Source: Planctomycetota bacterium
GTDB lineage: Bacteria > Planctomycetota > Phycisphaerae > Sedimentisphaerales > Anaerobacaceae
Direction: 5' to 3'
Length of the DNA: 34,217 nucleotides
Assembly: GCA_022563885.1 (NCBI GenBank)
Contig: JADFMM010000029.1
Location: forward strand, 1 to 34,217
In this document: positions 6,621 through 31,884 of the stretch, in pieces
How positions within the stretch are numbered: position 1 is the first letter of the stretch
How the letters are laid out: every line of letters starts with the position of its first letter
Notes under the pieces: model-generated
Database searches by the model: none
What the model was told of the DNA's origin: nothing
What the model saw: the letters and a program-made list of their open reading frames with translations, nothing else
Translations under genes and position numbers: made by a program

Positions 6621-6693
6621 TATCCCCAGGGGGAGTCGAACCCCCGTCTCCAGGATGAGAACCTGATATCCTAGGCCACTAGACGATGGGGAC
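6621..6693 (-). tRNA. tRNA-Glu (anticodon CTC)
   Basis: The minus strand reads a full 73-base cloverleaf: acceptor GTCCCCA/TGGGGAT (with G1-U72), D arm GTCTAGTGGCCTAGGAT, anticodon loop TTCTCAT, T arm GGGGG-TTCGACT-CCCCC, discriminator A. CCA is not encoded. A copy of the 162-bp repeat starts seven bases upstream of its 5' end. Confidence 0.93.
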
Positions 6694-6699
6694 ACTAGC

Positions 6700-6860
6700 A
6701 GGCTTTGTCAGAAAACTCCGTCGTCGGCCCGAGAGCGAACGTTTTTTCGCCTGGCGAAGCAGGCGAAGCAGGCGATGTTGGTTTTATCGTCGATACAGCC
6801 GGATGCAGCCAGGCGGAAAACAAGCCGCTCGAAGCCAGATCGAGTTTTCTGACACAGCCT
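6700..6860 (+). repeat. Family 1 inverted-terminal repeat element, copy A
   Basis: A 161-bp unit beginning AGGCTTTGTCAGAAAACTC and ending GAGTTTTCTGACACAGCCT, which are inverted repeats with one mismatch. Inside, TTTTTTCGCCTGGC and GCCAGGCGGAAAA form a second, nested inverted pair, so the whole element can fold into one long hairpin. It lies between tRNA-Glu and tRNA-Met. This copy has a tandem GCGAAGCAG duplication compared with copies B and C. No coding capacity is evident. Confidence 0.85.
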
Positions 6861-6869
6861 AGAACGTAG

Positions 6870-6943
6870 TAGCGACGGGTGGACTCGAACCACCGACCTT
6901 AGGCTTATGAATCCCACGCTCTAACCAACTGAGCTACGCCGCC
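6870..6943 (-). tRNA. tRNA-Met (anticodon CAT)
   Basis: A 74-base cloverleaf on the minus strand: acceptor GGCGGCG/CGTCGCT, D arm GCTCAGTTGGTTAGAGC, anticodon loop TTCATAA, T arm GGTGG-TTCGAGT-CCACC, discriminator A, no encoded CCA. The pair next to the anticodon loop is A31-G39, a mismatch. The acceptor with a paired end and the D arm fit elongator Met; a CAT tRNA that becomes Ile2 after lysidine modification cannot be excluded. Confidence 0.9.
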
Positions 6944-9149: not shown

Positions 9150-9311
9150 GGGCTCTTTCTGAAAACTCCGTCGTCGGCCCGAGAGCAAGCAATTTTTTCG
9201 CCTGGCAAAGACGGCGAAGCAGGCGATGTTTGCTCTATCGTCGATGCAGCCGGATGCAGCCAGGTGAAAAAAGGGCCGCTCGAAGCCAGATCGAGTCTTC
9301 AGACAGAGCCT
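9150..9311 (+). repeat. Family 1 inverted-terminal repeat element, copy B
   Basis: A 162-bp unit with ends GGGCTCTTTCTGAAAACTC and GAGTCTTCAGACAGAGCCT. The interior is nearly identical to copies A and C, including TTTTTTCGCCTGGC against a mirrored CCAGGTGAAAAAA. The short flank TACG occurs on both sides and may or may not be a target duplication. It lies upstream of the LolA-like gene. Confidence 0.85.
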
Positions 9312-9628
9312 ACGGGCCTGGTTTTCTGTCAGTATGGTGCCCCTGGGACCAGACACGCAACGAAAAACTGACGCCTCACCGGCATGTCTGCCTCACAACG
9401 ACTTTGATCGTGGATCTGCAGGGGCAACTTTACCTACAGCGGTGCAAAATTCGGCTGGGAACGCAGCCCGATTACCGATTACAGACTGTTGGACCGGTCC
9501 CGATCTTCCGACATTGTGGGAAGTTGCGTGATTTGGTACACTCGCCGGCAGGTGCTGTCGGAGGTGGCTAGGTTCCCCGATGGGGCGCGAGGGTGGGTGT
9601 TGAGGGTAACTCTGTGAGGCCGAACCCT
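9312..9628. other. Spacer without an identifiable gene
   Basis: About 317 bases between repeat copy B and the CotH gene. Short open frames exist on the plus strand but give no family signal and overlap one another. It may be remnant sequence. A GAGG sits nine bases before the ATG at 9629 and serves the next gene. Confidence 0.4.
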
Positions 9629-12600
9629 ATGGTGAAACCGAAGCCGCTGCTAGGCTTTGTCGGAAAACTTGCTCGTTGGCCCGAGAGCGAGCAATTATTT
9701 CGCCTGGCAAAGACGGCGAAGCAGGCGATGTTGGTTCTATCGTCGATGCAGCCGGATGCAGCCAGGCGAAAAAAGGGCCGCTCGAAGCCAGATCGAGTTT
9801 TCCGACACAGCCTGAATTATCCCTTCATTCTCCTTCTTTTTCTCTTTCCCTTCGCTTGCCTCGAGGCTCAGGACCTGGTCCGGATCAATGAATTCGTGGC
9901 CGTCAACGACAGCGGTCTCGACGACGAGGACCGCGACGAAGTGGATTGGATTGAAATCCACAACGGCGGCACCACCCCGGTCGACATGACGGGCTGGTAC
10001 CTGACGGACCGAGTCAATGATCTGACCAAGTGGCGGTTTCCCGGCGTCCTCATCGCACCTCACGGCTATCTGGTGGTGTTCGCCTCCGGCAAAGACAGGA
10101 ACGATCCTGCCGGCCCACTGCACACCAACTTTAAGCTGAGCGGTGACGGAGAGTACCTGGGACTCATCCGACCCGACGCTGCCACCATCGCATCGGAGTT
10201 CTTCCCCGCCTACCCCATCCAGGCGCCCGACGTGTCCTATGGCCTGGAAGTCGCCACCGCAGAAGAGACACTCGTTCGCCATGACGGGGTGGCCCGAGCG
10301 CTGCTGCCAGTAGACGACGCGCTGGAACCACGACGCCAATCGGGCGATCCGCGGCCCTGGACGCAGGTGGACCTCGACGATTCCGACTGGCAGGTAGGCA
10401 CCATCGGCATTGGGTACAACTACGCAGGCCTCATCGGGCTGGATGTCTCGCCCATGCGCAATACCAATGAGACGATATACTGTCGAGTGCCCTTCACCGT
10501 CGTCGATCCGCCCCGGGTGAAGTCACTGACCCTCCGCATGCGCTACGATGACGGGATGATCGCCTACATCAATGGCCAGGAGGTCGCCCGAGACAACGCC
10601 CCGGCGCCGGGAACCGAGACCTGGAAATCCGGAGCGATCGCCAATCGGTCCAACAGAAAGGCCGTCAAGGCGGTCGATTTCCCGCTCTTTCCCCTCGACT
10701 TCCTCCGTCCCGGCCAGAACGTGCTGGCCATCCAGGGCCTCAACAACGGCTTGAGCAGTTCAGATCTCCTGATACTGCCTGAACTGGTGGCCACCGTCAC
10801 TACCGACGCGATTCCCTCCCTCGCCTATTTTCCACTGCCCACGCCCGGGCGACCCAATGGTGCCGGCGTGGCGGCGCTGGGGCCGATCATCCGCGAGCCC
10901 GATCACGCGCCGGCCATGGCGCAAGGGGACCAGGACCTGCGGGTGTGGGCCCGCATCCGGCCTAGCTCGGACGGGCTGCTCTCGGCACGGTTGCATTACC
11001 GCATCCTATTTGGGCCGGAGATCGTCGTAGCCATGGGAGATGACGGGCAGGGTGGCGACGAAATAGGTGGAGATGGGATCTACTCCGCGGGCATAGGGGC
11101 CGGCGCGTTTCGAGCCGGGCAACTGATACGTTGGTACATCACGGCCACCGATGACGTGGGGCGGGTGACACGTCTTCCGGCCTTCCTCGATCCTGAAAAC
11201 GCACCCGAATACCTGGGCACGGTCGTGGACGACCCGAGTCTGACCAACCCCCTGCCCGTGCTGCACTGGTTCGTGCGGAGCCCTGGATCGGCCAACTCCG
11301 ATGCTGGTACCCGTTGCACACTGTTCTATGACGGTGAGCTGTATGACAACGTGGCGGTGAATCTGCATGGACAGTCCAGTCGCGGGTTCCCGAAGAAGAG
11401 TTACGACATCGACTTTCATCCGGGCCACAACTTCAAGTGGGCCCCGGGGCAACCCCGCGCCGACGATATCAATCTGATGACCACCTACCCGGACAAGGCC
11501 CAGATGCGCAATATTCTGTCCTATGAGACCTTCCGAGATGCCGACTGTCCCTACCACTGGGTCTTTCCCGTACGCGTCCAGCAGAACGGGACCTTCTGGG
11601 GGACCGCTCATGTCATGGAGAATGGAGACGAAGACTGGCTGATCCGCATGGGCGTGAATGTCGACGGGGCGCTCTACAAGATGTACAACCGATTCACCAG
11701 TCCCGGCGATGCCACCAACGGCGCCGAGAAGAAGACCCGCAAGCATGAGAGCAACGCCGATCTGCTGGCGCTCTTTAACGGCATCAGCCTCGCCGGTGAG
11801 TCACGCCGACGCTACCTCTACGACCACGTGGATGTCCCCCAGGTGGTCAACTACCTGGCGGCCCTCGTCATCACCGGTAATACCGACTGCTGTCACAAGA
11901 ACTACTACCTCTACCGCGACACGGGCCGTAGCAACGAATGGCAGATGTGGCCCTGGGATGTGGATCTGAGTTTTGGCAGGCGCTGGATCAGCTCCCACAC
12001 CTACTGGGATGAACGGCTCATCACCAACACCCGTGTCTTCGTCGGCAGCAACAACCGCCTGCCCCAGGCGATCTTCGGGATAGCGGAGGTGCGGCAAATG
12101 TATCTGCGTCGGATACGCACCCTGATGGATGACCTCTTGAAGCCGCCCGGCGTCTCGCCCGCGAACCAGCACTACGAGCCCCGTATGGATGAACTGGCGG
12201 CCCTCATCGCCCCGGATGCGGACTTGGACGCCGCCAAGTGGAACTCCCATGCCTGGGGCCAGGGATCCACAGCGCCCTGCTGTCCTCAGTCTCTGTTGGA
12301 AGCCGTCGCGGAGATGAAGTACGTCTATCTGCCCGAACGACGTCGCCAACTCTACCACGGTCTGGCCTCGGGCGCCGGGGAGATCCCCGACGCCCAACCG
12401 GACGCCGCCATCGTAGAGATCGGGGGCATCAGGACGGAACCGGCCAGCGGCGACCCGAACGAACAGTTCCTGCAGCTGCACAATCCCAACCGCTATGCCG
12501 TGGACATCTCGGGTTGGGCCTTGCGGGGCAGTATCGACCTCTTCTTTCGCGGCGGCACGGTGATCCCCGCGGAAGGCCTGCTGTACGTGGCTGCCGATCG

Positions 12601-12790
12601 GGTGGCCTTTCGCGGACGACCCTCCTTCCCCAACGGCGGGCAGGCCCTCTTCATAGTCGGCGACTACGAGGGCCGGTTTTCCTCTTCCTCGGGTTCCCTA
12701 GAACTCGTGAATCGCGCGGGTCGGGTCGTGGCCCTGGTGACCGACGTCCAGCAACATCGACCCCTACTTCGCTCGGGGCGTGGACGCTAG
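9629..12790 (+). CDS. Secreted CotH-kinase-fold protein with two lamin-tail domains
   Basis: A 1053-residue exported protein. The ATG at 9629 has GAGG nine bases upstream. Its first eight codons (MVKPKPLL) are separated from a hydrophobic signal core (NYPFILLLFLFPFACLEAQ) by 54 codons that are exactly a family 1 repeat. Domains: lamin-tail 1 (about 81-190, LVRINEFVAVNDSG, DWIEIHNGG), a beta-sandwich region (about 245-390, DDSDWQVGTIGIGY, LAIQGLNNGLSSSDLLI), CotH kinase fold (about 565-820, VNLHGQSSRGFPKKSYDIDF, WPWDVDLSFGRRW), lamin-tail 2 (about 925-1035). CotH-fold proteins include spore-coat kinases; activity is not shown for this type. The end may be frameshifted: a +1 frame continues from about 12750 to a TAA at 12878 with ILAVQGFLNHV, resembling the internal LAIQGLNN segment. 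Confidence 0.85.
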   Translation: MVKPKPLLGFVGKLARWPESEQLFRLAKTAKQAMLVLSSMQPDAARRKKGRSKPDRVFRHSLNYPFILLLFLFPFACLEAQDLVRINEFVAVNDSGLDDEDRDEVDWIEIHNGGTTPVDMTGWYLTDRVNDLTKWRFPGVLIAPHGYLVVFASGKDRNDPAGPLHTNFKLSGDGEYLGLIRPDAATIASEFFPAYPIQAPDVSYGLEVATAEETLVRHDGVARALLPVDDALEPRRQSGDPRPWTQVDLDDSDWQVGTIGIGYNYAGLIGLDVSPMRNTNETIYCRVPFTVVDPPRVKSLTLRMRYDDGMIAYINGQEVARDNAPAPGTETWKSGAIANRSNRKAVKAVDFPLFPLDFLRPGQNVLAIQGLNNGLSSSDLLILPELVATVTTDAIPSLAYFPLPTPGRPNGAGVAALGPIIREPDHAPAMAQGDQDLRVWARIRPSSDGLLSARLHYRILFGPEIVVAMGDDGQGGDEIGGDGIYSAGIGAGAFRAGQLIRWYITATDDVGRVTRLPAFLDPENAPEYLGTVVDDPSLTNPLPVLHWFVRSPGSANSDAGTRCTLFYDGELYDNVAVNLHGQSSRGFPKKSYDIDFHPGHNFKWAPGQPRADDINLMTTYPDKAQMRNILSYETFRDADCPYHWVFPVRVQQNGTFWGTAHVMENGDEDWLIRMGVNVDGALYKMYNRFTSPGDATNGAEKKTRKHESNADLLALFNGISLAGESRRRYLYDHVDVPQVVNYLAALVITGNTDCCHKNYYLYRDTGRSNEWQMWPWDVDLSFGRRWISSHTYWDERLITNTRVFVGSNNRLPQAIFGIAEVRQMYLRRIRTLMDDLLKPPGVSPANQHYEPRMDELAALIAPDADLDAAKWNSHAWGQGSTAPCCPQSLLEAVAEMKYVYLPERRRQLYHGLASGAGEIPDAQPDAAIVEIGGIRTEPASGDPNEQFLQLHNPNRYAVDISGWALRGSIDLFFRGGTVIPAEGLLYVAADRVAFRGRPSFPNGGQALFIVGDYEGRFSSSSGSLELVNRAGRVVALVTDVQQHRPLLRSGRGR
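9652..9813 (+). repeat. Family 1 inverted-terminal repeat element, copy C, inside a coding region
   Basis: A 162-bp unit with ends AGGCTTTGTCGGAAAACT and AGTTTTCCGACACAGCCT. It is fully open in the reading frame of the CotH gene (54 codons). Removing it exactly joins CTGCT to GAATTATCCC, which keeps the frame and restores a normal signal peptide. Confidence 0.85.
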
Positions 12791-13458
12791 GGGATCAGGC
12801 ATCCTTGCTGTGCAGGGCTTCCTGAACCACGTGCTGCTCTGGTTCTACAGCGATCCCTACATCTCAGCTTATGTGTAAGCTGTTTTCGGAGGCGAAACGA
12901 TGAACTGGATGATAGGTCGGCATTTACATTTCCTAGATTGATTGTGGCACGTATGGCTAGGATCAAAATGGATGGCGCGTCTGCAGCGCATCATCTCCAT
13001 GGACGCATTGCCGGAGTGAAGGGGGAGTCAAGCCGGGTTTTGTTAGAGTGCCTGAGGAAGTAGCTTGTTCTGCGCGGGACGGGTACAACGCCTTGTCACC
13101 GAAAGTCATCTGCGGCTGCGCCAAGATCACCAATGCCATCCGCACCGCCACTCTGCGTCATCAGTCAAGAGTGCAACTCAAGAAGTTGAGGAAGCGGCAG
13201 ATAGCCCACTAGGCCAGGCGTTGCTTAGGGAACGGCAAGAAATAACTTGGACTTTTGAATGCCCGATTGCACCCCATCTTGGATCGCTTCTCAATCGCCA
13301 AATCCGCGACGTAGAACGGCTACGCCGGTGGTTTCGCTCAATCGGGCGCGACCCAATATGGGGCACACTTGGACTCCAAATTGCCCTACTTATTTATTGC
13401 CGATCCCTTAAAGTCATCGTCTTGCCCGGTCAGGAGAGCATTGGTGGTCTTTCTCGTC
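12791..13458. other. Gene-free spacer with repeat remnants
   Basis: About 670 bases. Up to 12878 it holds the +1-frame tail of the CotH gene. Between 12880 and 13225 I see only short overlapping frames with no family signal. From about 13228 it carries the longest copy of dispersed repeat family 2. No promoter or terminator stands out. Confidence 0.45.
13228..13412 (+). repeat. Dispersed repeat family 2, longest copy
   Basis: Three blocks recur elsewhere: the GAAATAACTTGG block near 3689; CGCTTCTCAATCGC at about 13285 and again at 31758; and GGTTTCGCTCAATCGGGCGC at about 13330 and again at 31803, with the last two at nearly the same spacing. CGATCCCTTA near 13402 is also found near 31875. 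Spacing changes by one base between copies, so shared protein coding is unlikely. Confidence 0.6.
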
Positions 13459-31454: not shown

Positions 31455-31520
31455 AGGCTCTGTCTGAAAACCCGATCTGGCTTCCCCTCGGGCCGACGAC
31501 GGAGTCTTCAGGAATTGCCT
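31455..31520 (-). repeat. Family 1 repeat, internally deleted copy D
   Basis: Both ends are present in reverse orientation: AGGCTCTGTCTGAAAACCCG with ATCTGGCT on the left, CCTCGGGCCGACGACGGAGT with CTTCAGGAATTGCCT on the right. About 95 bases of the middle are gone. It sits between the two small membrane-protein genes. Confidence 0.75.
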
Positions 31521-31751: not shown

Positions 31752-31884
31752 TCAGCCGCTTCTCAATCGCGAAATCCTCCCCAGTAGGCCAACTACAACT
31801 CTGGTTTCGCTCAATCGGGCGCGACTGAATCTGACGCAAATCTGAGCGATAAATGACTCATTGGATGATGGGCGATCCCTTAGG
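31752..31884 (+). repeat. Dispersed repeat family 2, third copy
   Basis: It holds CGCTTCTCAATCGC (31758), GGTTTCGCTCAATCGGGCGC (31803) and CGATCCCTTA (31875) in the same order and nearly the same spacing as at 13285-13412. The AACTTGGAC block is missing. Confidence 0.55.

Follow-up and report, generated by a model that had tools for sequence, protein, structure and literature searches.

An in-frame MITE within the signal peptide of a CotH/lamin-tail gene and its recurrence at signal peptides in two Planctomycetota genomes

The gene for an exported lamin-tail (LTD)/CotH kinase protein is split by a MITE, which lies in frame after codon 8 of the signal peptide and leaves the reading frame open from the native ATG to the end of the gene. 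The gene is found in the window, a stretch of 34,217 nucleotides that makes up an entire contig (C351) of a 6.5-Mb draft genome (G000), and the same MITE interrupts signal peptides at about 18 distinct sites in this genome and its sister G001. The CotH case is best read, with a probability of about 0.7, as a non-autonomous MITE inserted in the n-region, where insertions survive selection since export discards them.

The CotH gene and its split signal peptide

The features of the gene and the copies of the repeat in the window are collected in Table 1. Pfam places an LTD domain at residues 83–188 (5e-22) and a CotH domain at residues 578–876 (3e-40) of the encoded protein. A preliminary description of this DNA had read the start of the gene as MVKPKPLL, a repeat and NYPFILLLFLFPFACLEAQ, preceded by a GAGG, with the 162-bp repeat equal to 54 codons, open in the gene frame and containing two in-frame ATG codons. 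This reading is borne out, the 162 bp being composed of a 160-bp element and a 2-bp TA target duplication. The h-region of the signal peptide and its A-Q end are visible and common to the orthologues, and cleavage after AQ is probable from the sequence.

Table 1. Features of the CotH/lamin-tail gene and copies of the MITE in the window
Feature	Position	Strand	Basis or remark
Full copy of the MITE (third), between two tRNA genes	6701..6859	+	91% identical
Full copy of the MITE (second), upstream of the CotH gene and outside it	9151..9310	+	91% identical
GAGG, Shine-Dalgarno-like	9616..9619	+	sequence; 9 nt ahead of native ATG
CDS, exported lamin-tail (LTD)/CotH kinase protein	9629..12790	+	1053 codons, insertion included; Pfam
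Native start with codons 1–8 (MVKPKPLL), original n-region	9629..9652	+	G001 codons (MVKPKALL); empty-site orthologues
Left copy of TA target duplication (target CTAA/CTAG type)	9651..9652	+	from the consensus flanks of the 87 full copies
MITE of 160 bp in sense orientation, open in gene frame	9653..9812	+	GGCT...AGCC
Left terminal inverted repeat GGCTTTGTCGGAAAACTT	9653..9670	+	
In-frame ATG within element, alternative start	9728..9730	+	sequence
Second in-frame ATG within element, alternative start	9746..9748	+	sequence
Right terminal inverted repeat	9795..9812	-	
Right copy of target duplication, TA decayed to TG	9813..9814	+	flanks of 87 copies
Signal peptide h- and c-regions NYPFILLLFLFPFACLEAQ	9815..9871	+	sequence and orthologues
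Internally deleted 64-bp copy keeping both terminal repeats	31456..31519	.	

Empty and filled orthologous sites

It had also been proposed that the repeat was inserted into the n-region of an existing signal peptide and was tolerated there, in which case relatives should show an empty site. The orthologues from G002 (MRKLPVPAFIFTISCLLCPWISLSAQ...) and G009 (MRYSKTLFLLFLVPFTISSFSTAWAQ...) lack the repeat, possess normal signal peptides of ~24–26 residues and start at the equivalent position, while G001 carries the insertion at the identical site. The simplest history suggested by these sequences would place the insertion after the split from G002 and before the parting of G000 and G001. Since the insertion, the mature part of the CotH gene has acquired 51 synonymous substitutions as against 35 nonsynonymous ones (dN/dS 0.22) and is thus under purifying selection, which indicates that the protein, insertion included, still works and matters to the cell, in line with the proposed tolerance.

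Empty sites have been verified for four genes in all. Besides CotH, the site in the L069 gene is empty in both G001 and G002, with an identical TATAAT...ATG directly upstream, the L093:2933 gene lacks the element in G002, G009 and G041, and the L134 gene is filled in G000 and G001 and empty in G002.

The MITE

The core of the repeat matches 118 times in G000, 98 times in G001 and 21 times in G002, with no match to a reversed-pattern control, and candidate copies of the MITE number in the hundreds. The named records with the same repeat are metagenome assemblies of Planctomycetota/Phycisphaerae. Of 87 full copies, 48 measure 160 bp, and a long form of ~212–220 bp also exists. The aligned copies have GGCTYTGTCNGAAAACT and its inverse as common ends, and their terminal inverted repeats pair over 18 bp. 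The single strand folds into a single long hairpin, of -95 kcal/mol in the consensus and -86 kcal/mol in the CotH copy. The target is YTAR, of which the TA is duplicated: TA is present on both sides of 27 of the 87 copies, on the left of 54 and on the right of 41, and TG is found at the right flank in 10. Judged from these sequence features, the copies have the anatomy of a MITE whose mobility depends on a TA-duplicating transposase: they are short and dispersed, bear terminal inverted repeats and a target duplication, encode no transposase of their own and occupy sites that are filled in some genomes and empty in others. The shared ends were not found beside PF01609, PF13586 or PF13358 transposases in four genomes, the single PF13586 match (L238) being covered through its overlap with L216. 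Draft assemblies often lack IS copies.

A standard copy together with the TA duplication adds 162 bp, or 54 codons, and the consensus, TA context included, is free of stop codons in four of six frames. The survival of the CotH reading frame is explained by these two properties, the exact addition of 54 codons and the openness of the element in most frames. The 54-residue peptide encoded by the 160-bp MITE has no match in Pfam.

The copy between the tRNA genes (6621–6693 and 6870–6943, both on the minus strand) is also present in G001 (L154); Rfam detects only tRNAs over the window. Several further observations were made on the copies and on other repeats. The 220-bp long form, with an internal insert of ~60 bp, is seen at L086, L069, L084 and L177; with the TA it adds 222 bp, a multiple of three, which does not hold for the forms of 215–216 bp. 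The sequences at L042:5620, L077:3312, L091:4598 and L118:2572 begin with an end of the CTAGGCTCTGTCTGAAA type and have unrelated interiors; they may represent additional MITE families or the autonomous element that is missing. At L064, L122, L074 and L061, copies of the MITE lie directly ahead of the start codons of core genes, which, judged by eye, resemble MraY, the acetolactate synthase small subunit and FlgB. The window also contains another repeat, of 55 nt and unrelated to the MITE, which includes TGGTTTCGCTCAATCGGGCGCGAC; its two copies, at 13311–13365 and 31784–31838, are 76% identical.

Recurrence at signal peptides

In-frame signal-peptide insertions were counted by a fixed rule, according to which the frame is open through the element, an ATG lies no more than 30 codons upstream, at least 150 codons follow downstream, and an uncharged hydrophobic stretch comes soon after the element with no ATG between. 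The null consists of virtual insertions at every YTAR site of the same loci under the unchanged rule. In G000, 10 of 87 full copies satisfy the rule, compared with 3.3% of the simulated insertions (p = 6e-4), the signal-peptide caller being a simple hydrophobicity rule and the null controlling for the YTAR target and the ORF layout, with a possible insertion bias towards gene starts uncontrolled. The identical rule applied to a separately fetched set from G001, chosen regardless of context, gives 12 of 88 copies, compared with 2.15% simulated (p = 4e-7); the two sets are not fully independent, as they have three sites in common. One G000 match (L045) is a false call, lying in the interior of a membrane protein, and the figure of ~18 distinct sites in the two genomes is obtained with it removed and the shared sites counted once.

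N-terminal in-frame placement is itself not enriched (12 of 87 copies in G000 against 13.7% in the null). The excess lies in the signal-peptide character of these places: G000 has 10 signal-peptide-scored copies and 12 N-terminal in-frame ones, where the null has 104 and 434 (Fisher p = 3e-4), and of the 12 N-terminal in-frame copies in G001, 9 are signal-peptide-like. Overall, the copies are depleted from ORFs of at least 300 amino acids, in which 34% of them are located compared with 66% of random positions. Preferential insertion into genes, as in an overall RPE-like behavior, was considered as well and is ruled out by this depletion.

The frames read through the copies have a recurrent layout of a short native start, the element and a hydrophobic core, as exemplified by MRFGAP / element / LACFLTVCLAWVNVVQS, MRERASLHLKEL / element / LAILLILWWVTTPSSWA, MKNL / element / LVLFLLCLCPFTSQA and M / element / WLLSLICCLAALPLTSTKA. 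The loci L119–L198 are biased to open sense copies and serve as examples only. By Pfam, several of the filled genes encode members of families whose proteins are often exported, namely sulfatase, PQQ beta-propeller, amidohydrolase with a lipobox and DUF547. Copies are also found inside other genes. The essential cytoplasmic gene for DNA polymerase III delta prime (L140:1826-3313) has an in-frame MITE that splits its Pfam match in two, a YkgJ-like gene (L042) likewise contains one in frame, and internal in-frame copies are present in TrkH (L167) and a sulfatase (L145). The in-frame copies in cytoplasmic or essential genes (L140 and L042) indicate that the signal-peptide niche is not exclusive.

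Proposed explanation and alternatives

According to the proposed explanation, the MITE would have entered an ordinary signal peptide in an ancestor of G000 and G001, at a YTAR site lying past codon 8 and ahead of the hydrophobic core. Translation would begin at the native ATG and yield a preprotein in which a basic n-region of ~60 residues would precede the unchanged h-region. The Sec system would accept this extended preprotein, signal peptidase would remove all foreign residues, and the mature CotH protein would be unchanged. More generally, MITEs would land at YTAR sites, most genic ones being lost and those in signal-peptide n-regions kept, presumably for the reason that an n-region needs only to be basic, can be long and is discarded by signal peptidase. 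Survival of n-region insertions where most other intragenic ones do not survive would account for the recurrence at ~18 sites, and selective survival is the most likely cause of that recurrence. We lean towards the wider proposition that mobile elements within genes generally find a safe harbour in the n-regions of signal peptides, from which they leave the mature product unaltered.

The start of translation is the point on which the closest alternative differs. Initiation at 9728 or 9746, with the native ATG silent, would give a basic n-region of 23–29 residues ahead of the same h-region. Both codons are in frame and followed by the basic run AARRKKGRSKPDRVFRHS, most sense-frame sites carry ATGs of the element, and the very stable mRNA hairpin of the CotH copy begins 24 nt past the native ATG. 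For CotH, a start within the element is possible, and either codon would also provide a plausible signal peptide by sequence. However, a good Shine-Dalgarno sequence is absent before both, three filled sites (L132, L177 and L093:11298) have no ATG, GTG or TTG inside the element, and the filled sites examined retain the native ATG and its upstream sequence. The use of the native start is favored because of these three sites and of the retention of native starts and upstream sequences, and bypass through an internal start is considered unlikely. The notion that the gene simply starts after an ordinary intergenic repeat, the open frame through the element being accidental, draws on the element being stop-free in four frames and on ORFs at L064, L089 and L117 that likewise run through upstream copies. 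It is very improbable for CotH, where no ATG, GTG or TTG is present between the end of the element and the hydrophobic core, and where the empty-site orthologues start ahead of that core.

It could also be hypothesized that the element has been domesticated, being favored at signal peptides for a useful trait such as a regulatory hairpin, an RNase III site or a targeting extension. The strong hairpin and the functional long n-regions of autotransporters (PMC2805444) are consistent with this, as is the finding that the CotH elements of G000 and G001 differ by a single base in 160, compared with 18 of the 245 bases aligned in the flanks, although the identity of shared copies is inflated by their selection for similarity to the consensus. 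Moreover, the element of L134 shows 12 differences, 10 of which change an amino acid, as would be the case for an unconstrained spacer, and long-form copies diverge at the same rate as their flanks, which makes domestication improbable. An apparent constraint on the element from the overall divergence between G000 and G001 (2.4% against 6.1%) was rejected, as it is biased by the choice of copies and is not seen in the long forms or in L134.

Selective survival in a discarded n-region, if true, would mean that a MITE whose copy and duplication amount to a multiple of three exploits n-regions at many independent sites, and that selfish DNA has a place inside protein genes that is almost cost-free. 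The safe-harbour idea becomes countable, since sites, frames and empty orthologues can be tallied and set against a null model. The filled genes also provide a natural experiment on how long and basic the n-region of a Sec signal peptide can become, and their starts or signal peptides may be called wrongly by gene finders during annotation.

Comparison with known systems

In-frame MITEs, one of them forming part of a signal peptide, are already known, and the recurrent signal-peptide niche appears to be new; no report of such a niche was found in the open literature searched, most subscription papers being outside its scope.

The Rickettsia palindromic elements (RPE; Ogata et al. 2000) are in-frame repeats in functional protein genes (PMC2229807, PMC10969869). 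Like the present MITE, they are short (~105–150 bp), palindromic, dispersed and stop-free, and lie in frame in protein genes, which here are the conserved genes for CotH, DNA polymerase III delta prime, TrkH, sulfatase and others. Compared by description, the RPEs belong to a host phylum unrelated to Planctomycetota/Phycisphaerae. The present MITE differs from them in being mostly intergenic, with its genic copies concentrated in signal peptides, and in having a defined TA duplication that makes standard copies a multiple of three.

The enterobacterial RU-1/ERIC and RU-2/YPAL (Delihas 2007) are likewise MITE-like repeats to which ORFs are fused in frame, and RU-2 constitutes residues 1–30 of the signal peptide predicted for Y. 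pestis YPO1552 (PMC2759123). There, at a single exported-protein locus, part of the signal peptide is made up by the element, which was proposed as a maker of new proteins, whereas the present MITE splits pre-existing signal peptides at ~18 loci with the native start and h-region kept.

Proteins of the autotransporter and two-partner secretion systems have extended Sec signal peptides whose N-terminal part is unusually long (PMC2805444), to which the predicted long n-region of the CotH preprotein would be similar. However, the extension in those proteins is a common, organised feature of the family, while here it is a mobile insertion absent from the orthologues.
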